Below are positions 2,947 to 49,080 of a DNA stretch of 64,000 nt, piece by piece (positions within the stretch are counted from its first letter, which is position 1; each line of letters begins with the position of its first letter). The position numbers and the translations under genes were made by a program. Source of the DNA: Undaria pinnatifida (lineage: Eukaryota; Sar; Phaeophyceae; Laminariales; Alariaceae); assembly GCA_012845835.1 (NCBI GenBank), contig JABAKD010000017.1, forward strand, positions 7,649,600 through 7,713,599. Direction: 5' to 3'. Below the pieces are notes generated by a model. It had not been told where the DNA came from. It made no database searches and saw only the letters and a list, made by a program, of their open reading frames with translations.

Positions 2947-3405
2947 TACACGCCAGCTGTGAGATCGAACATTTCGTGGAAACTAACATTTGCAAGCTGT
3001 GTGTGATAATCCGGTCGCGCGTGTTACTGGGTGTGTGTCCTCATTAAAGATACAGTTCGGTGACTCCCTATGGAATTACAACGTAGCTTGTACCAGGTTC
3101 AACAGGGTGATGTTAATCAATCTGTGCGCGGAAACTCTAAAACCCGCTTCTGAGGCGGGCAATATTCTTACAGCCGTAGCAGAAATGCATCGGTTCATCA
3201 AGTATATGCTGTAAGTCGTAAAACCGGTGAGGGGAGGGCGGAGTTTTTTTCAGGCGTGGGGGCCCGGGGCGAGGGGGGGGGGGGGTACCAGCGGAGGGAG
3301 GCAACTGAATCTGTGCAGCAGCTATAAACCCTACAAGGGGACAAATCTGGCGGTTGTGGGAGAAACGCATCAGTTTACCATGCATAGACTATATATACTG
3401 TTAAT
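2947..3405 (+). repeat. dispersed repeat A with G-rich subrepeats
   Basis: The copy begins with a block containing CAGCTGTGAGATCGAA and TTTGCAAGCTGTGTGTGAT. It runs through a CCTCATTAA..GATA segment to a G-rich run near 3,240-3,300. A subrepeat (AATCTGTGC...ATGCATC) occurs twice, near 3,120 and 3,310. The same block recurs at 21.7, 24.3, 35.9, 41.3, 41.5 and 43.9 kb in both orientations, so it is an old dispersed element. A short minus-orientation piece lies near 4,615-4,655. Confidence 0.75.
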
Positions 3406-3429
3406 CGTACGTATATAAGATAGGAATAT

Positions 3430-4735
3430 CCCTACTGGTATAGACTAGTCTGTTGCTTGTATAGACAACAGAAATATATATTGCATTGTTTCGCCATGCT
3501 TTTGCTTCAGACGACAGGTAGGTATCGACACACCTTTTTACCGCTGGTTTTGTTCAGACGGTGGCTATTCAAAGCGATATTAATACCAATCGCTACCTAT
3601 CACCTTTGGCACACGATCTATTTCGACGTACACATGTACGAGTACAGCACCCAACTTTATTCATGAGAAGGAAGAATTATCTACTTCGGGGGGGCAACGA
3701 TTGGCTAAAAACTACCGATCGTCCGGAAGGGATACATTATGTGGTACTCCGAAGAAGTGGAGAAAAAAAAAGATGTACGTATAGTGTACATCGATACTAC
3801 CGTTGCCGCAAGCAGTAGTCGATACTCCAGTTCTTTTTACATCGTATCTGTGATCATTGGTGCCAAACAGCGATCTGTTTAAGCGATGATCAGTTGCTTC
3901 GGGTGCCGTGGATGATATTTTTTTCTATTGGGCTATCCGGGTCAACAGTAGGTCGGAAACTATGTGTATCGATACCTATCGCGGGCCACAAGAGGTAGAT
4001 TTCGGGGAGTGTCGAAAGGTATTGTAAGCAACGACAGGGCTAGGACGGTGGCTACAACAACAGGCTATTGTGTGGCCGGTGTGCTCGTGAAGGCTTCCAT
4101 CGGCTGGTGTATTGGACACCACTAAAATTTGAAAACGGTCCCGGACATGCTATCGTTCGAGCAATAATACCTGCATGCCGCCTTCGATCGGTATGTATTA
4201 TTAATACCAAATGGAACAGGTAGGCATTGGAATAATAGAGCGATACCTATTGCCCGATGTAATAGGATGGTAAAAGCATCGATCGATGCCAATCATTGCT
4301 CAACTGAATAAGGTCTGCAAGGGGACGGGTCTAAAACTAGATCGCTCAATTCAACAGGTTTGCCAGGCCGTGGACCCGTACTACTTACTATGTGTTGCTC
4401 ACAGGAATAGGGATGGGAGACCATCGATCGATGAAAAAATATATAGACTAGTCTATTCCTTGTAACGCAGCTTCTTAGTTTCAGTTTTTGTACCTCTCCA
4501 TAGGATCACTGAGAAGTGTAAGTATGGCAGCAGTGAGCAGAACTACTGCGGACCGAAATCGCCCAAAACAAATCGGAAATGGTTCATATATATATACAAA
4601 GAAGAGTAAAAACGCGCGACCGGAGTATCACGCAGCTTGCAAAAGCGAATCGACCCTTAACCCCCTTACAACGGGAAGGCCTGATTTGGCGACAACACCT
4701 TTTGGAGATAGTATAGGAAGAGATTTTGCAGGGCT
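3430..4735. other. no recognisable gene; scattered short motifs
   Basis: No exon-like frame is recognised. Short motifs such as GTATCGAT and TATAGACTAGTCT recur without a clear period. Confidence 0.35.
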
Positions 4736-4935
4736 GACCCGACCCGACCCGACCCGACACGTGAGGATTTCGAGACGTCTTGACCCGACCCGATCCGACC
4801 CGCGAGAGTTTCGAGACGTCTTGACCCGACCCGACCCGATCCGACCGGACCGGACCCGCGTGATTTTGAAAACCTCTTCACCCGACCCGACCCGCGAGGG
4901 TGTGAAATCTTCCTGACTCGACCCGACCCGACCTG
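4736..4935. repeat. degenerate CCCGA array
   Basis: GACCC pentanucleotides are interrupted by spacers of the type GCG..G..TTTTGAAA..CCTCTT. The same spacer flanks the larger array at 6.1-6.7 kb, so the two loci share an origin. Long open frames on both strands here are produced by the repeat and are not genes. Confidence 0.85.
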
Positions 4936-5745: not shown

Positions 5746-6131
5746 AATATTACTACTGTAGTTACGGCTTCAGCCGGCACATGATTCGCGTCACGCTGAT
5801 GTATGCCTTGGTACGAGTAGATAGGGGTACTGTCTGCTGATTGTTCTGCACGCTGTGACAACATATGATGGGAGCATCGGCACGAGAGAGGCAGCAAGCG
5901 GAAACGTTTGTGTTATTTACGGATCCGCGGGTCGGACCCGCGGGGCGCCTGCACGGCAATGGCCCTCAGATGTACATAAGTTTGAAAATACAGGGTCCGC
6001 GGGCCAGATCCGCGGGTTTGACCCGGGGGCCAGCCCAAAACAACCCGCGGGTCATCATGGCTTGACTGGCGAGTGACCCCTATCTCGCGGGTCATGACCC
6101 GACCCGACCCGCGGGGTTTTGAAAGCCTCTT

Positions 6132-6706
6132 GACCCGACCCGACCCGACCCGACCCGACCCGACCCGACCCGATCCGACCCGACCGGACCCGACCCGACG
6201 CCACCCGACCCGACCCGACCCGACCCGACCCGACCCGACCCGACCCGACCCGACCCGACCCGACCCGACCCGACCCGACCCGACCCGACTCGACCCGACC
6301 CGACCCGACCCGATCCGACCCGACCGGACCCGACCCGACCCGACCCGACCCGACCCGACCCGACCCGACCCGACCCGACCCGACCCGACCCGACCCGACC
6401 CGATCCGACCCGACCAGACCCGACCCGACCCGACCCGACCCGACCCGACCCGATCCGACCCGACCCGACCCGACCCGACCCGACCCGACCCGACCCGACC
6501 CGACCCGACCCGATCCGACCCGATCCGACCCGATCCGACCCGACCCGACCCGACCCGACCCGACGCGACCCGACCCGACCCGACCCGACCCGACCCGACC
6601 CGACCCGACCCGACCCGACCCGACCCGACCCGACCCGACCCGACCCGACCCGACCCGACCCGACCCGACCCGACTCGACCCGACCCGACCCCACCCGACC
6701 CGACCG
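6132..6706. repeat. (CCCGA)n satellite, about 575 bp
   Basis: A near-perfect pentanucleotide array of about 115 units. Variant units (GATCC, CCGGA, CCAGA) recur as blocks, for example near 6,171 and 6,311, which suggests higher-order duplication. CCCGA contains no stop in any frame, so the frames of more than 200 codons on both strands (reading PDPTR or GSGRV) are artefacts. The flanks at 6,100 and 6,715 carry the TTTTGAAA..CC spacer seen at 4.8 kb. Confidence 0.97.
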
Positions 6707-6939
6707 GTGTGATTTTGAAACCCCCTTGACCCGACCCACGGGTCGGGTCATGATCCGTGAAAAGCCCTGGGATTTGGGGGCTTTAAAAGGGGTTAAATTG
6801 GTCGAACTCGCAACAACAGCTAGCTGACAAACATTTTTGAAAACTTTGCTTCAGGAGTATCCTACTAAACCCTTGCGCTCAAAGTAGCAGGTACCCTGCA
6901 CCTTCTCGTTCATGTACATACCTTAAATAGATTCGTTAA

Positions 6940-7527
6940 ATGATAGAATTGTGGGGCTATGTATGCGATCGATATTGTTTGTTGCACAACGTAATACCAA
7001 AATATTTCAAGGGTATCAAATGTATTTATTTGCCATTTGATGAAAGGCCTAAGCTTTTATTGCAATTTTCGATCGCACCTATTTTTGTCATCAAGAGGTA
7101 TCGATCGAAAAATGCGCACACCACTCTGGAGATCAATGGCCAACGTGCCTTTTCCTTCTGACCAATCGGTCACAGAAATAGGTATCGATCGACAACCCAA
7201 CACCCCTATCCCAAGGACAATAGCCAAATATTGTGCAAACTTCGCTGAAGCTAATGTCGTCATGAGTATCATAAATATGGTGATCGACAATCAATTACGA
7301 GTTCACACACCCTAGACTATACCAATTTTCGCTGAAATGTATTGGAAAAATAAATTCGAAGGCATCGATAGACAATTTCACAATGTCACACACCTATCCT
7401 AAGAACGACAAGCATTTGAACCTTTTCCCGCCAACCAATCGTTGTCATGAATATGTATCGATCGAAAAGTTCATCTTGTTATTTTAGGTGTCATAGCAAG
7501 GTCGATACCAGTAGGCACTACGCCAAG
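6940..7527. repeat. degenerate ~90-bp TATCGATCGA repeat
   Basis: GGTATCGATCGAMAA-like cores recur near 7,096, 7,180, 7,278, 7,361 and 7,455. Each is followed by a CACACC or CCTATCC..AGGAC segment. This is a decayed tandem array ending just before the mobile element target site. Single related TATCGATAGAC motifs also occur near 2,790-2,850. Confidence 0.6.
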
Positions 7528-7534
7528 CTATTGA
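7528..7534. repeat. target-site duplication, left copy (CTATTGA)
   Basis: CTATTGA lies directly before the left terminal inverted repeat. An identical heptamer lies directly after the right one at 14,292-14,298. This is the footprint expected from insertion of a cut-and-paste DNA transposon. Confidence 0.88.
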
Positions 7535-7649
7535 CCGGCGCCCGGGAATCTGCCAACATTGGCAGGAAGGAAAAGCCTGCCATCACCAAAAACGCCTGTG
7601 TACCTACTCTATAGACCCAGATTTCAATTTGAAAAAGACCACGAAGTAC
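7535..7649 (+). repeat. left terminal inverted repeat
   Basis: It starts CCGGCGCCCGGGAATC and contains a near-palindrome, TGCCAACATTGGCA, a plausible protein-binding site. It ends at ACGAAGTAC, after which the two element ends diverge. The open frame crossing it is a shadow. Confidence 0.9.
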
Positions 7650-8049
7650 GTGACCAGTTTCGTTTCTTGGAGCCTGCCATCTGTCGATGCGACGAGGTGG
7701 GTATTGATGGCGGAGGCAGCGGTGGGGGCATTGGAAGCAGCACCGGCGGAGATCGTGACGGTGGAGGTAGCGATGGAAGTAGCGGTGGAGGCAGCGGTGA
7801 TGGATCCGCTCGGGAGAGCGAACCACAACAAGGTGCAACTTCATCTACTTTGACAGCAGGGCACTCATCGACATCACGAGCACTATTCTGTCAAAGCCAG
7901 CACGTCAAGAAAAAAGCAATCGGGTGGGGGTGTTTCCTTACAGCCCTCTACCTACGCTACACAAGGCCGGATGTGAGTGGTTCTTTCGTAGACTTCTGTT
8001 TGTTACCTGCTGCTGTACGGACGAATCTTACACAGCAGTATCTGGTACC

Positions 8050-8900
8050 ATGGTAAAGCTGAAGCAGTAGACTACAGGACACCAGATAAGAAACATACTT
8101 ACCTGGTACCTGCGGTAAGCTGGCTTTCTTATTTATGAGGGGGTACGTTCTACACTGACTTCGGGTATAACAGCTCCCGAGCTTCTTTTTTTCCTGAAAA
8201 TATCAACTTGGCTTTTTTATTACTGCACCTTTAATATTACAGGTAGATGTCTTGTACTGCTGTAGTACCGCTGTACCAGGTATATCGTAAGGCACGGAAA
8301 TACTGACCTACAGCAGTAGGTTGGCTTTCGTATTTGGCAGAGGGTTTGTTCTTACAGGTAACTTCAGTATGTTTTTTTTTTTCTCACATTAACTCTTGTC
8401 AAAAATCTAGAGTCCGTGGTCACATAAAGGTATATTGACTCCCGAGGTTCTTACTCCGGTAGCTAAATATCACCCTGGCTTACTACCAGGTTTATTTTTT
8501 CGTTTCCTGTATTGCTGTACACCAGCAGTTTGTCTTCGGCAATGTTATTTTGATACGAGGTACGAGTCGTACCAGGTCACTGTAGGCTACTGCTCTTGCT
8601 GCTTGTGCGCTGCTGGTTGTACGCGAATCTACCTGGTACCAGGTATCATAGCTCTGAGCATGCGATACCTGGTACCTGGTACGAAGTAAATACCATACCT
8701 GGCCTCTGATTAATTGCATGCCAGATACCAGATGCAGTAGTACAGGACACCTAAAAGATACCAGGCACATAAAATAGCGACCTAGGCTGGCTTTCTTATT
8801 TGGGAGAGGGTGCACTCTACCTTATTGTACGTTAACTTCAGTACAAAGTATCCCGAGTTTCTTATTTTCGTGTAAATAACAGCCTGGCTAATTACGCCAT
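8050..8900 (+). repeat. left subterminal repeats of the element
   Basis: A unit containing GGCTTTCTTATTTGGGAG, then a CTCCCGAG(T/C)TTCTT block, recurs near 8,120, 8,321 and 8,786. It occurs again in the same orientation at the other end near 13,661. Palindromic CCTGGTACCAGG/TACCTGGTACC motifs are interspersed. No exon with exonuclease motif I (D-x-E) is found here. Confidence 0.7.
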
Positions 8901-9149
8901 CTATTTTGAAACTATTACTTCTGCTGAAGCTTGTTTGCTGTCGTAGCTTCTACACTCGTACACGTGATGTATAGCTCTGAGCATATGATGACTGGTACAT
9001 GATAACTGGCACCTGGTACAATTGCGGCAGTCGTGTTTTCTTGGTTCGGCAGTTCGCAGCTGGCACAAGGCGTATTCAAATCGAAAATTCTCGCTTGCGT
9101 TTCCAAAGGTGAAAAACCAGCGTGATTTGGTACCAGGACATGATGGTAG

Positions 9150-11850
9150 ACTTGGCGTCAACACCAAGTCAGACGCGACGTATTTGGATGAGGTCAAAGC
9201 CGCGAACACTGTGGGCGCGCTGACTCACGCGAAAGCTTGTTGGGTGCAGACGCCATCTCTTTCGCTGGCGGGTATAGTGTCTAGTTTGGTTGGGAAAGAG
9301 GTGCCCACAGACCCGATCTTCCCTTTGTCTCGCTGGAGTTCTCCCCTCAACGCCCAACTGGTGATACTACTCTAGTTAGCTGTGCGCGCGTCCTATTCAC
9401 GCTCGTTGTAGGTTATCGAACGTTTCTTGTTGCCAGCTAGATTGTTGGCGCCATGCTCTTGAATCTGCTGGTATGTGGAATGTTAATGATGCCTGCCTTT
9501 TAAAATCCTTACGGTGCCGTCACGGGTAGAGTATGCCTGCTTGGATGATTACGCGTCCGTTCTCGTTTACGAGGAGATCGAGGCATTGAAGGATCCCATG
9601 CGCGGCCCGGTTCCGACCATTTTGCCGCCGGGAACACAGATGCGATTGGGATGTTCTGTACCACATTCATCGAGACCTTATTTCTCGCATCATCTAAACC
9701 AACAACATGCACGGCACATCCGCATCACAAGCGACTAAACCTGTTATCACCCCCCAAACCTGGTCTATTTTGCGATGGAACTCTAGGTGCGACTCCACAG
9801 CAACAACCATGCCAGTTGTGTTGGCGTTGGGAACGTACAGGGCCATGAGACTACCGCTGGATCTTTGCTTCGGTGGCGTCCTCGATCACGTCAACCTGGC
9901 CAGAAGAACGTCGTAGTCAAAGTGAGCGACGCGGTCAAGCCTGCTACGTACGCAGCACACAAGGAGGCACCTTCCTCCGCGGGTGTGGGTCGTGTGACGA
10001 TGAAGGAAATCTGCGGCGGCGGCGGTGACAGGCTTGTTCTGTGGGACGTTACCCATGTTCGCCTTGCGGCCGATTGGACACCCCCCCCTGCGACACCAGC
10101 ACCGTCGCCAAACTCGAATGCAAGTGCTGCTTACGACGATGACCCCGACTTGTTCGCCACCGAAGCACCTTGCCACGTGGTGGGCTCGCTAGGTAAGGCC
10201 TTACACCGTCCTTGGAAAAATTTGAGCTGATTTGTCTGACGCCCTGCCCGCATTGGCGTTCCTCATTCTCTTGCTGACGTTTGTATTCGCCCAACGAACC
10301 AAACTTTTTCGTTTTTTTTTTTTTTCTAGATGATACGGACTCGGACGAGGGCGAAAAGGACGGTGGCGACGGGTATGACTTTGATGCTGGTCACGACCGC
10401 GCTTGCGACCTAAGAGGCGGAGACGAGATCGGTGGCAATGTTTACCAGGACGACGTGAGTGCTGCAGAGGTGGCAGATATGTGTTGTTTGTTTCTGAAAT
10501 CTGCTCGGCGTCAACGTGCGCTTTGTATACGATTTTTTTCTGTTCGAATGTTCTCAATTCATGTTGGTTGTTATCCAACTGCATCAGGGGGGTGGCCCAA
10601 ACATGCTCAAGGGTCGCCTGGATACCTTCCACGCGCTTCCACGTATCTCGCGCCTGGTGAAGAAGAGTCACGGCGCCTTCAAGCCCTCCATGGCTTGGTT
10701 GAGAGATTCTTGCTATATCGTTAATCTGGAAGACATCAAGGAGGCAATTGGTTTTGACGTCACTTGTGTCGTTGTTCGGATCAGTGATATGGGGAGACTT
10801 TAGCTGTAGTCGAAAACAATGCCTGTACTGGGTCATGTGTCGTGACCATTACGCTCCTGCCGATCTTGCTTCCAACTGCAGGTAGAAGTGCTCTTCAAGC
10901 GCAAAAATGCCGTCGGAATAGGTGGCAGAGTAGACAGAGATAGAGATGAACTGTGTTTCTTGCGGAATTGTCGGCGGTTGGCGCCCGAGCGTACACGATT
11001 GTTGACTCGCTTTGATTCAGTGATTGATCGGTTCTGCGACGTGATCGATGCGAAATCGGGATAAATTCTCCTGCGCCCGAAAGCACTGGAAGTCGTGAAG
11101 CTGCTCCGCAAGCACATCGAAGCTGGTTGTCTAAGCAAGCCTGACGGCGTGCCGCTGTACTACGCAACAGGGAAAAGTAAAGCGGGGATCACCACTCGTC
11201 GCTGTGTCAGAGATTCCAGCAGTACAGGGGCTTGGTGTGTGTGTTTCTCGTGACTTTCCTATCACTAGCAGGTACAGCAACCATTTCCACCCATAACATT
11301 GGCCTCACGGCGTAACCCGATGCTCATAGTATTTGCCGTCAAGTATACCGCACGGTCTCGTTTGTTGCAGTGTTTGTAACATGTTGAGTTTTTTCTTCGG
11401 CTTGGTGGTCAACCAGGTAATTCGTGTTATGATGGACCTGACGTACACCTGTCCAATATGTTTTCCGCCTGCTGTAACTGTTTGTCCTTTTTTCAAGGGT
11501 TTTCATCGTTACCTCCGCAGGCTACTATTGCGCTTCTCCTGCGCTGGACCCACTCGATCTGCTGGAGTTCAATTATCGCTGGGACATTTAGATGGCTGCG
11601 AAGAACCGCGGACTGCCGAAGTAGATTGGAGCGTGCTACGAACAGTTTCAGTTTGAGATTATGTAAAGCGACACGGCCAGCTGGTCACCGGATAGCCCGA
11701 TGTTTCCTGGGTGGGTCTCTGCTCTCGACGTGGCAGACACTGGTGAAAGAAGCGACCTTTCTCAGAGATTGTGGGGACCTGATGCTCGGGGTGAGGGGCC
11801 GGTTGATCTTGTCGACCTCCCAACAACTTCAGAATCGCTATGATCAAATC
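9150..11850 (+). pseudogene. DEDDy 3'-5' exonuclease fusion gene, decayed
   Basis: Inferred exons: 9,150-9,360; 9,532-9,657; 9,787-10,192; 10,330-10,454 (after a T-rich tract and TAG); 10,588 to about 10,750; 10,882-11,234; and a last one around 11,518-11,845. Exonuclease motif II reads VNTKSDATYL and motif III reads YACLDDYASVLVYEEI, the YxxxD signature of RNase D/WRN-type DEDDy nucleases. Between them SRWSSPLNAQL matches the family's helical region. Later exons carry VVVKVSDAVKPA, LVLWDVTHVRLA, DTFHALPRIS, then GVPLYY and RCVR, and LLEFNYRWDI. In-frame stops (TAA at 11,062; TAG, TAG and TAA between 11,590 and 11,670) break the 3' half. The 5' part with motif I is missing or unrecognised. 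The exonuclease call is firm. The wider family (transposon-like fusion proteins of algae and fungi) is from general knowledge. Confidence 0.75.
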
Positions 11851-12731
11851 AAAGGGCACGCCAACGTTAGGAATACGATTATCTCTATTTGTCAACGACA
11901 TACTGCATTGCGTGCTAGGTTGCAGGAAGCTGACGGGGGCGCGATGATTGCGGGTGTTGTCGGTAGCGCTGTTTCCCCTGCTGTTTCGCGGAGTTGGTAT
12001 GGGGCAGGTATTGTTGGCGTTCGTGGCGGCAGCGAAGGGGGGGGCGCAGCGGCAGGTGCAGGCGTGTCGGCGTCAGCTGCAAAGATGTTCGATTTTGGCG
12101 GCGGCGGGTACGAGGCAGGGTAGTTTGGCGCCGCCAACAGACGCCCAAGAAGCCCAAGGGCCCATTCCGGGGCCCTCAGATTTTCTTTCACCGCGGCCAC
12201 AGTCGGCAAGAAGGCGCGTACCAGGAGGCTCACCCTGCCCCGCGTGGGAGGGAGGGGCGGCCCCAACGCACTGTGCCGCCAGAAAAGCACCGGCCCAAGG
12301 CCTGCAGAACTGGGAAAAAACTAGATCAGACGGGAAGCGGTGGTGGTCATGGTGTGAATGTGAAAAGTGCACTCGGGCCCATCTTGGTGTGGTAGGTTAG
12401 CGTCTGCAGTGTCGGGTCAAATTTGCCTTTTGTTAATTCACGAAGAATCAATATCGTACGAGTTCAAGTTTTTGCTTCGCTTGCGAGCCGGCCGTTTCGT
12501 TTTGTGTGGCCCTGGGTTTGATTGTCTGTTTCATCTCTGGGGGAGGGGCAACAGCGATACTACCACCGTTGTCGACAAAATTGTGGTCCCTTTTTGTTTA
12601 GTTTTCCCTTTCCCATGTTTTCCTTTTTATCCATCCCTGGGGAGAGGGAAAGAAGAAGGGGGGGGGGGGTTACCTGGTCCCTACTCGTACCTATTCCCCA
12701 CCCCCCTGATATTTCTTTTCCTTCGCCTGGC

Positions 12732-13115
12732 ATGATGGGGGGTGCTGGATGTCGCCGGGCGGCAAGAACGATTCAGTGCCAAGACGTACACCACACAAAA
12801 GTGTCTGTATTGGAAGAAGAATTTTTCAGAAGCATCGCCAATCATTTGGTTGAACTAGAGTTACGTCGGTCCTGTTTTTTGTGGTGTTCGTGTCGTCTAT
12901 TTCAGCGGAACCACCCGCATCGCTTCCCAGTCGAATATTGTCACCGAAAGCCCTTCTTCATCCATTCGATACACACCAAGGAGTTCAACGCACAAAGAAA
13001 CGCGTTGTATAGCAACGACAACATTTTATCACTAATTTTCAAGGACGTCAGCCGTGAGTTCGACGAATTTCAGGTCAATACTCATCTTTGCAAGCTGCGT
13101 TGTTGGTACTCGTAA
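12732..13115 (+). other. unassigned open frame inside the element
   Basis: About 128 codons of mixed composition with a long run free of stops, including VLEEEFFRSIANHLVELEL. Its end (DVSREFDEFQ) lies in a 41-bp segment repeated exactly at 59,326-59,366. After that segment the sequence becomes a CATCTTTGCAAGCTGCG tract like dispersed repeat A. No domain is recognised. It may be another exon of the element's gene or chance. Confidence 0.3.
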
Positions 13116-13189
13116 TATACTCTATGGGTGATTTTATATTGGGAGGTCCTATTTTTTGTCCACTATAATGGTAAGTGTTGGTATTTATA

Positions 13190-14170
13190 CTTTAGGTGAA
13201 CATTTGTATCGCAAACGCATGAAAAAAACAATATGTTGCGGCTGGCGGCTGGTTGGTGATGCTTGCCGTTGTACACATTATGGGATACAGCACTACACTA
13301 CTTGTAGTAGTAGTAGAAGTAGTAGAAGTAGTAGTGCACAACAGTGCACGACATAGATGTAAAAAAACACCCAGGGATATGAATAAGAAAGCAAGGCTCA
13401 TACGAGTACTTGTACCTTACCAGGAAAGGAAGATAATTGAGAGGCGCTGTGCTGAAGATAGTGAGTAGAACTCACCCTGTCTCAAATAAGAAATTCAGCC
13501 TCGGCCAGAATTATTCCGGTTTCTTCCTTTTTTTCCTATTAATATTTAATTTCTGCTACTACTGCGGTAGGAGCAGCATTGTGCCTAGAATAATCTATCT
13601 GCACTGCACCTACTTGTACAAGTATCAGGTACTTACTTGATAGCGAGAAACAGGAATCCTGGCTGGGGCTGCGGGTTTCTTATTTGGGAGGGTGTCATCT
13701 GTACTGCCTTGAGCTCCCGGGTTTCTTGTCTTTCTAGAAGTATCAGCTTGCCATTTTTACGTCCTGTACTACTTTTAAGAGTATCGTGCCGCCGGCCCTC
13801 TGATAAGCGGCGCCGGGGAATCTGCGTCTTGCTGCTGAGTTGTCGTTGTAAGGAGCTGCCTGGTCATCTACCACCATAGGCTCCTCGTTAATCCACGTCA
13901 AGCCTAGCGACGTCGTGGGTGCATGTCTTTCATCCGAGACTGCACTCCACGCCGTGCCTAGCGAGGAGGAAACCGATGCATCACTTTCGTCCGACTCGCA
14001 AGGCGGCAAGGAAAAGCCGAGCTCGCAAGACTGGCAGCAGCACTTGCAGCAGCCTCCATGCTGCTGGCGGTTCTCAGCACCGTAGATGCCTTGGGGTTAA
14101 CCACTGCGGGTCCGCCGCTACGTGCTGCTACGTGTTGCTACGTGTGTTAGCTCTGCGGGCAGAGTGTGCG
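13190..14170. repeat. right subterminal region of the element
   Basis: It contains a (GTA)n run near 13,300-13,345 and one subterminal repeat unit at 13,590-13,750 matching those at 8.1-8.8 kb. Beyond it, both strands are open at 13,743-14,040: minus 89 codons, plus about 80 codons rich in Ser and Glu. I cannot decide between them. Confidence 0.55.
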
Positions 14171-14177
14171 GGCAGGT

Positions 14178-14291
14178 GTACTTCGTGGTCTTTTCAAATT
14201 GAAATCTGGTTCTGTAGAGTAGGTAGACAGGCGTTTTTGGTGTTGGCAGGCTTCTCCTTCCTGCCAATGTTGGCAGATTCCCGGGCGCCGG
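14178..14291 (-). repeat. right terminal inverted repeat
   Basis: Inverted copy of 7,535-7,649, ending GGGCGCCGG directly against the second CTATTGA. Confidence 0.9.
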
Positions 14292-14298
14292 CTATTGA
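14292..14298. repeat. target-site duplication, right copy (CTATTGA)
   Basis: Perfect direct repeat of 7,528-7,534 immediately outside the right TIR. Confidence 0.88.
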
Positions 14299-48270: not shown

Positions 48271-48419
48271 GCATTATAACATCTCCCTCCGGCACTCACA
48301 CGGAGGGCAATTATAACATCTCCCTCCGGCACTCACACGGAGGGCAATTATAACATCTCCCTCCGGCACTCACACGGAGGGCAATTATAACATCTCCCTC
48401 CGGCACTCACACGGAGGGC
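48271..48419. repeat. 37-bp hairpin unit repeated four times
   Basis: Copies at 48,272-48,308, 48,309-48,345, 48,346-48,382 and 48,383-48,419 are identical apart from the first base or two. Each contains TAACATCTCCCTCCGG and a perfect inverted pair CCCTCCG / CGGAGGG with a 9-base loop. There are no spacers, so this is a tandem repeat and not a CRISPR array. Confidence 0.97.
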
Positions 48420-49080
48420 ACGAAAGTTTTAACGGGTCAAAGGGAACCAGTACAATCGCCAAGCTCCCATGAAATCCGTGGAGAATCTCCCGCAGAAAGT
48501 TGCATAGACTTCCACACCACCGAAATGAAAAAGCAGACGGGAGGTCCCGCAAAACGTACACCAGGTACATATGTGTTGCGAATTGCGGTTAATTAACTAC
48601 GTAAGCACTGAGAAGTGAATATCTGGGAAAGCCGCGAGGTTCCGACGTATTGTCATGTACACGCCTACGTACATGATCTGGTCTGGAATCCACCATTTTT
48701 ATTATGTTCGCAAGGATTTGTGAAAGCTGAGGTAAAAACAGAAATCGTAGTGGACGCCGGCAAAAAAGGACGTTTCAAATTATGCACGCAGCTGTCCTAT
48801 AGCCTTTACTGGCGATAATCGGCCCACGTCGTGACGGGTGTGTCGTTTGTTAAAGTTGGATGTAACTGGTGGCCGTCGATAGCTTCGTCGTTGGTCGCGG
48901 CAGAGCACAAAAAGGGCGACCCCCGGTCCTCCCGATCTTCGGTCCTCTGTCCGTGCTCTGTACTATGTAGACCATGGAGACTTCCTACGTGAGAGAAAGT
49001 CAAAGTAAGTCAATTCCATGCATCCATCGCGAGAAGATACAACTCAACGAGCAAACTCTTCCTCACCATTATAAACCGGT
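48420..49080. other. unassigned; weak exon candidates on both strands
   Basis: Plus strand: after TTCGCAAG, a frame with GFVKAEVKTEIVVDAGKKGR ends at 48,818. Minus strand: 48,806-49,003 is open and hydrophilic. Neither has a recognised motif. Confidence 0.2.

Follow-up and report, generated by a model that had tools for sequence, protein, structure and literature searches.

An internally deleted transposon with long inverted ends in Undaria pinnatifida, probably derived from an exonuclease-bearing Dada element

In a 64-kb stretch of the genome of the brown alga Undaria pinnatifida (contig JABAKD010000017.1, hereafter the window), an earlier note, made from the letters alone, had described a transposon with terminal inverted repeats (TIRs) at positions 7535–14291 and suggested that it is perhaps moved by an RNase D-type nuclease rather than a DDE transposase. 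Our analysis confirmed that the insertion, with its 115-bp inverted ends and flanking CTATTGA, is real, and the element is a non-autonomous internal-deletion derivative. Very probably it is a member of the exonuclease-type Dada lineage whose copies multiplied in trans through a DDE transposase. The earlier interpretation is partly supported. The parent gene would have encoded an RNase H-fold DDE transposase (with the catalytic positions D1, D2, DxxH, and E) in which a WRN-like DEDDy 3'-5' exonuclease separates D2 from DxxH. In the derivative the ends and the subterminal repeats remain, D1, D2, and exonuclease motif I are gone along with their stretch of the gene, and the DDE transposase would act on these ends in trans, giving staggered 7-bp insertions with no shared target sequence. 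We infer that DDE catalysis moves the element, with a longer Dada as the partner and the exonuclease trimming DNA ends as an accessory.

Inverted ends and copies across the genome

The two ends of the element, at 7535–7649 (plus strand) and 14178–14291 (minus strand), are 95% identical over 115 columns, and CTATTGA is exact and flush on both flanks (7528–7534 and 14292–14298), as the earlier note had it. The 23-mer at the TIR tip, with up to 3 mismatches allowed, was found at two places in the window, and 100 shuffled sequences contained none. The left end was then sought throughout the genome (511 Mb, 68 contigs); since scores were obtained for 40 of 280 candidates, the counts are lower bounds. 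At least 56 matches were found, of which at least 41, the window's own included, have the tip CGGCGCC. Twenty stretches corresponding to 22 of the 40 other tip-bearing rows were fetched, and 18 of them contain paired ends (L023 and L027 do not), which makes 19 elements with the window copy. In all 18 further copies these ends enclose this gene, a possibility that the earlier note had raised. They are 91–99.5% identical to the window copy per aligned piece, and 12 of them align in one piece at 97.2–99.5% identity. About 240 bp are added on the left side of L022, L024, L025, L026, and L028, insertions are present in L016 and L028, and L022 has a small deletion and one piece at 91%.

An exact 7-bp target duplication flanks 13 of the 19 elements, including the one in the window, and L013 has one of 8 bp; the right end of L014, whose TIR match started at base 4, was placed by hand. 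When left and right flanks from different copies were paired as a control, none of 342 pairs gave a duplication. The 14 duplicated sequences (13 of 7 bp and one of 8 bp) are all different, with no target sequence shared among the insertions. Sites related to the flanks of L015, L017, L025, and L028 but free of the insertion are uninterrupted and contain a single target copy, imperfect in L025. This form of the empty-site test proposed in the earlier note covered paralogous sites for copies other than the window's, in the fetched sequences; the match of L016 and two of the three matches of L017 were left out because of gaps at the junction. The reading of the locus as a chance inverted repeat or an assembly artefact with a fortuitous flanking 7-mer, for which nothing speaks beyond the single locus first noticed, is ruled out by these duplications and by the genome copies (at least 41 tip-bearing matches and 18 further paired copies), and its probability is negligible.

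The single base between the duplication and the tip behaves differently from the tip itself. CGGCGCC is conserved from 7536, and the base outside it (7535 and 14291 in the window, and its counterparts in L009–L028) can be C, G, T, or A, differing even among copies 98.7–99.5% identical to the window element. This extra base is absent from the uninterrupted paralogous site of L015. End processing may have left this variable base as its trace.

We also looked for a preferred target gene. No tRNA gene was seen in any of the 13 joined sites, where the search covered tRNA genes but neither snRNA nor 5S genes. Rfam and tRNA scans of the window and Rfam scans of L039–L041 gave no match at threshold, the five weak Rfam matches all being under their gathering scores. 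As separate observations, two left ends lie head to head with 83 bp between them at L023:5103-5409, and the window outside the element contains about 115 tandem units of (GACCC)n with a related array (6132–6705 and 4735–4930) as well as four perfect copies of a 37-bp unit (48273–48420).

A gene remnant shared by all copies

The remnant gene was compared with a longer Dada copy in the same genome, at C30:22872400-22884600 (L042, L040, and L043), which has the motifs MAGDASFKYAK (D1), DECCEDR (D2), GMDCEWEP, SDATYL, and YACLDAYA (exonuclease), LDIFHA (DxxH), and RGTNNTE in this order. Window positions 8465–9150 correspond to 3099–3767 of the longer copy (69%) and 9154–11816 to 6109–8808 (84%). 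Between them, at 9150–9154 (plus strand), lies a deletion junction. The 2341 bp that the longer copy has at this place, where D1, D2, and exonuclease motif I are encoded, are gone, and all 19 copies share the junction apart from single-base changes.

What is left of the gene lies on the plus strand. The exonuclease's second half begins in the remnant exon at 9100–9351 (ExoII D, NTKSDATYL) and that at 9523–9639 the ExoIII motif EYACLDDYA, followed by the linker 3' of the exonuclease (9787–10188), an acidic linker (10329–10463), and the exon with the DxxH motif (10594–10764, RLDTFHALPRI). The next exon (10888–11226) ends at RCVR and is broken by a TAA at 11062 in all 19 copies; the exon with GFHRYLRRLL and YCASP (11497–11813) has a frame change near 11526 and stops at 11622 (TAG, 19/19), 11589 (TAG, 18/19), and 11664 (TAA, 14/19), and the C-terminal exons of the Dada gene occupy 11815–12370. 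Two stop codons are therefore common to every copy and a third to 18 of the 19. The fusion of exonuclease and C-terminal sequences reported in the earlier note stands, and a full DEDDy domain does not: the window copy keeps only the ExoII D and the ExoIII Y..D, and its frame has stops. It lacks motif I (D-x-E) and the gene's N-terminal part, profiles of these two regions giving a best E of 0.97 in the window. The Glu of the DDE triad is not callable in this copy, its position falling at an exon junction.

Variable sites among the copies are distributed 60/45/40 over the three codon positions, with 31 synonymous and 115 non-synonymous changes, and this variation reveals no coding constraint. 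Because the junction and the stops are common to the copies and coding constraint is absent, the family most likely spread after the death of its gene, in trans. In the 19 interior frames scanned with Pfam, a subset of all frames, no known transposase was recognized, the best of the weak matches, all below cut-offs, being VESA1_N at E 0.0074. The homologues and the longer copy have a DDE core.

A DDE core with a nested exonuclease

A first protein search returned 10 brown-algal relatives (from Sphacelaria, Laminaria, Ectocarpus, and Hapterophycus, and one without a name), some of them named 3'-5' exonucleases. In the homologues that cover each position, D1 is conserved in 51 of 51, D2 in 62 of 63, and E in 104 of 107, and within DxxH the D is kept in 97 of 101 and the H in 97 of 100. 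The WRN-like exonuclease sits between D2 and DxxH, and the order D1-D2-exonuclease-DxxH-E was found in P0007, P0012, the longer copy, and the locus L044 described below. The GVPLYY..RCVR region, which the earlier note described as a C-terminal region joined to the exonuclease, is present in the window and is part of the DDE domain's C-terminal half. Because a fold search with the whole model of P0007 gave only exonuclease-type chains among the matches listed, the DDE core was tested on P0024, and its predicted fold is of the transposase type. This fold is shared with ISCth4, which we take to be of the IS256 type, and with the hAT transposase Hermes, at a sequence identity of 7–12%, and the fold alone is held in common; we know of no exonuclease insert in either of these transposases. 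The WRN exonuclease, for its part, is not a transposition protein and is not nested in a DDE core.

These results bear directly on whether a DEDDy exonuclease could mobilize the element by itself, without DDE chemistry. In its favor, Pfam recognizes the exonuclease in the homologues scanned, with DUF6729 in many, and no transposase family in their core, P0025 having a separate DDE_3 stretch. (The gene model of P0025, from Mucor saturninus, joins an exonuclease-Dada protein to this DDE_3 domain and may be two neighbors fused in annotation.) Against it stand the conserved DDE, DxxH, and E positions and the predicted transposase fold. Moreover, the four acidic exonuclease residues are all kept in 43 homologues and partially covered in 49, one is lost in 1, and at least two are lost in 15 (P0034, P0036, P0072, P0085-P0087, P0089, P0093, P0096, P0098, P0101, P0104, and P0106-P0108). 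Among these exonuclease-dead proteins, 11 have the full DDDHE set and 3 keep all covered positions, so that 14 retain every DDE position covered, with H and E lost in P0107; among the 43 with an intact exonuclease, four carry a changed DDE/DxxH/E letter (two N for the D of DxxH, one K for E, and one P at D2), so that the set is imperfect in this group too. The organism is named for 12 of the 15, all of them mushrooms. Since the 15 do not form a single clade on the tree of the C-terminal domain (FastTree, midpoint root), the loss looks repeated, and because 14 of them retain the covered DDE positions, the exonuclease seems to be dispensable where the core is not. Exonuclease motif I, in addition, lies inside the part deleted from the amplified copies. 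On the conserved core, the exonuclease-dead homologues, and the motif I deletion we rejected the exonuclease as sole mobilizer, a reading we consider extremely improbable. An RNase D-type nuclease in place of a DDE transposase is likewise not what the homologues and the longer copy contain; the earlier note had named a DDE transposase with the exonuclease absent as the outcome that would speak against it, and we found the DDE transposase but with the exonuclease inside it.

Relatives beyond these were sought in the same genome and elsewhere. Other loci keeping the N-terminal part are present at C30:20621005 (52% identity) and at nine or more places at 32–39% identity, the counts being minima, and we take the latter as a putative second exonuclease-Dada lineage. 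In this lineage (L044, and loci on C33, C24, C20, C36, C32, and C28) the stretch from D2 to the exonuclease falls in a single match. L044, the only one fetched, has the full motif order and no inverted ends with a flanking duplication inside the 7.5 kb fetched. Scans of collections of viral contigs and genome contigs found no relative, and phage records gave no match. Head-to-tail Dada-derived units with near-constant spacing were seen at C34:7839833-7854771 (7027 bp), C48:7795778-7814737 (about 6205 bp), C61:16587020-16600386 (about 6512 bp), and C57:5842138-5855576 (6544 bp), and the 7027-bp unit in L039 is without the 115-bp ends.

Ownership of the ends and relation to known Dada

We next asked whether the 115-bp ends are Dada's own. 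A motif of about 100 bp recurs in both arms of the element, with its best match elsewhere in the window at E 1.4. Its profile was built from three copies in the left arm (8112–8220, 8313–8406, and 8781–8892) and one in the right arm (13667–13763), all on the plus strand, and an inverted copy not used for the profile (13384–13503, minus strand) was matched at E 9e-8. In the noncoding arms, window positions 7700–8304, 8465–9150, and 13447–13807 run collinear with the longer Dada copy, and the four longer-armed copies that were compared (L022, L024, L026, and L028) add a match to positions 1945–2058 of the longer copy, about 185 bp from its left end. Because of the collinear arms and the motif in both arms, Dada-owned ends are favored. 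In the alternative, the decayed Dada body is cargo between ends from another TIR superfamily, one that makes 7-bp duplications. Collinearity of both arms and the subterminal motif argue against this passenger model, as does the 7-bp duplication, which falls in the 6–7 bp range expected of Dada, and, weakly, the features that the 115-bp end has in common with the longer copy's left end: each starts with CGGC and contains GGCGCCC and GGGAA (the right end is without GGCGCCC). The model gains from the different ends of the longer copy, from the end of homology at 13807, where a degenerate plus-strand copy of the TIR tip (13807–13826, 3 mismatches in 20) is located, and from the published families described below, and we consider it unlikely. 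The last 485 bp (13807–14291) resemble a small separate element, with a degenerate tip on one side and the true tip on the other.

Derivation from Dada itself has to be weighed against several points. The ends of the longer copy, deliberately sought in this single copy, differ from the 115-bp ends (CGGCACGG.., 37 columns at 78%); it is flanked by a repeat of 6–8 bp, GCAAACAC, likewise deliberately sought in one copy. On the left, homology between it and the element gives out about 160 bp from the end, and on the right at 13807. None of the 18 paired copies examined combines the 115-bp ends with a full gene, and five of the 19 elements (L011, L019, L022, L024, and L026) have no recognizable target duplication. 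Patterns for the N-terminal CCCC and C-terminal CCHC zinc fingers of Dada were found in few homologues (7 of 29 N-termini and 6 of 42 C-termini, compared with 0.9% and 1.5% in shuffled sequences), and their spacing in this branch may differ. Membership in Dada would rest on architecture and host rather than on a direct alignment to a named Dada transposase. In Kojima & Jurka 2013 (PMC3706591), Dada-U6 and Dada-U1 have short subterminal repeats only and no TIRs, a description that also favors the passenger model, and every Dada with definable ends at that time was located in small RNA genes.

The same paper describes Dada as having a DDE transposase with DxxH and 6–7 bp duplications and as showing a distant similarity to MuDR, hAT, P, Kolobok, and IS256. 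It reports that in the Dada of Laccaria bicolor and Ectocarpus siliculosus the second D is separated from DxxH by a DEDDy exonuclease, which likely processes cleaved 3' ends. A DDE transposase with a built-in exonuclease is thus an already described combination, and the proteins studied here have the same architecture as Dada-1_ES of E. siliculosus and the L. bicolor Dada. Other features in common with the exonuclease-bearing Dada are brown-algal and fungal hosts, introns, 6–7 bp duplications, and an element length of 4.7–11 kb. Many Dada target multicopy RNA genes (Kojima 2022), and insertion into small RNA genes applies to many, not all, of them (PMC8869645). In a 2025 Genome Biol. study (PMC12477816), the DNA/Dada of Ectocarpus, also brown-algal, is a single family of 15 copies with 1 intact (Table 1), compared with at least 41 tip matches here; that genome also has 51 DNA/Unknown families and giant non-autonomous families carrying genes without transposase homology, which lend the passenger model some precedent. 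Unlike the Dada described by Kojima & Jurka, the present family has 115-bp TIRs and 14 different target duplications and is a deletion derivative. No report of Dada with long TIRs was found in the literature searched, which lay outside Repbase and most subscription papers; the long TIRs, the lack of a shared target, the variable base at each duplication, and the exonuclease-dead, DDE-keeping mushroom relatives are apparently new. In contrast to animal Dada, the exonuclease-type Dada could form a branch with true TIRs and no fixed target, in which the exonuclease trims the cut ends ahead of joining and leaves the variable base and some mushrooms later lost its active site and kept the DDE core, a scenario we put forward tentatively and regard as rather doubtful.

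The copies, duplications, and deletion junction show how an exonuclease-bearing Dada lineage behaved in a genome. If the ends are Dada's own, the exonuclease-type branch gains defined ends. The idea that an RNase D-type enzyme mobilizes this transposon falls away. With a second nuclease nested in a DDE catalytic core, the role of a 3'-5' exonuclease in transposition becomes testable, and the mushroom proteins that have lost the exonuclease active site provide a natural control.
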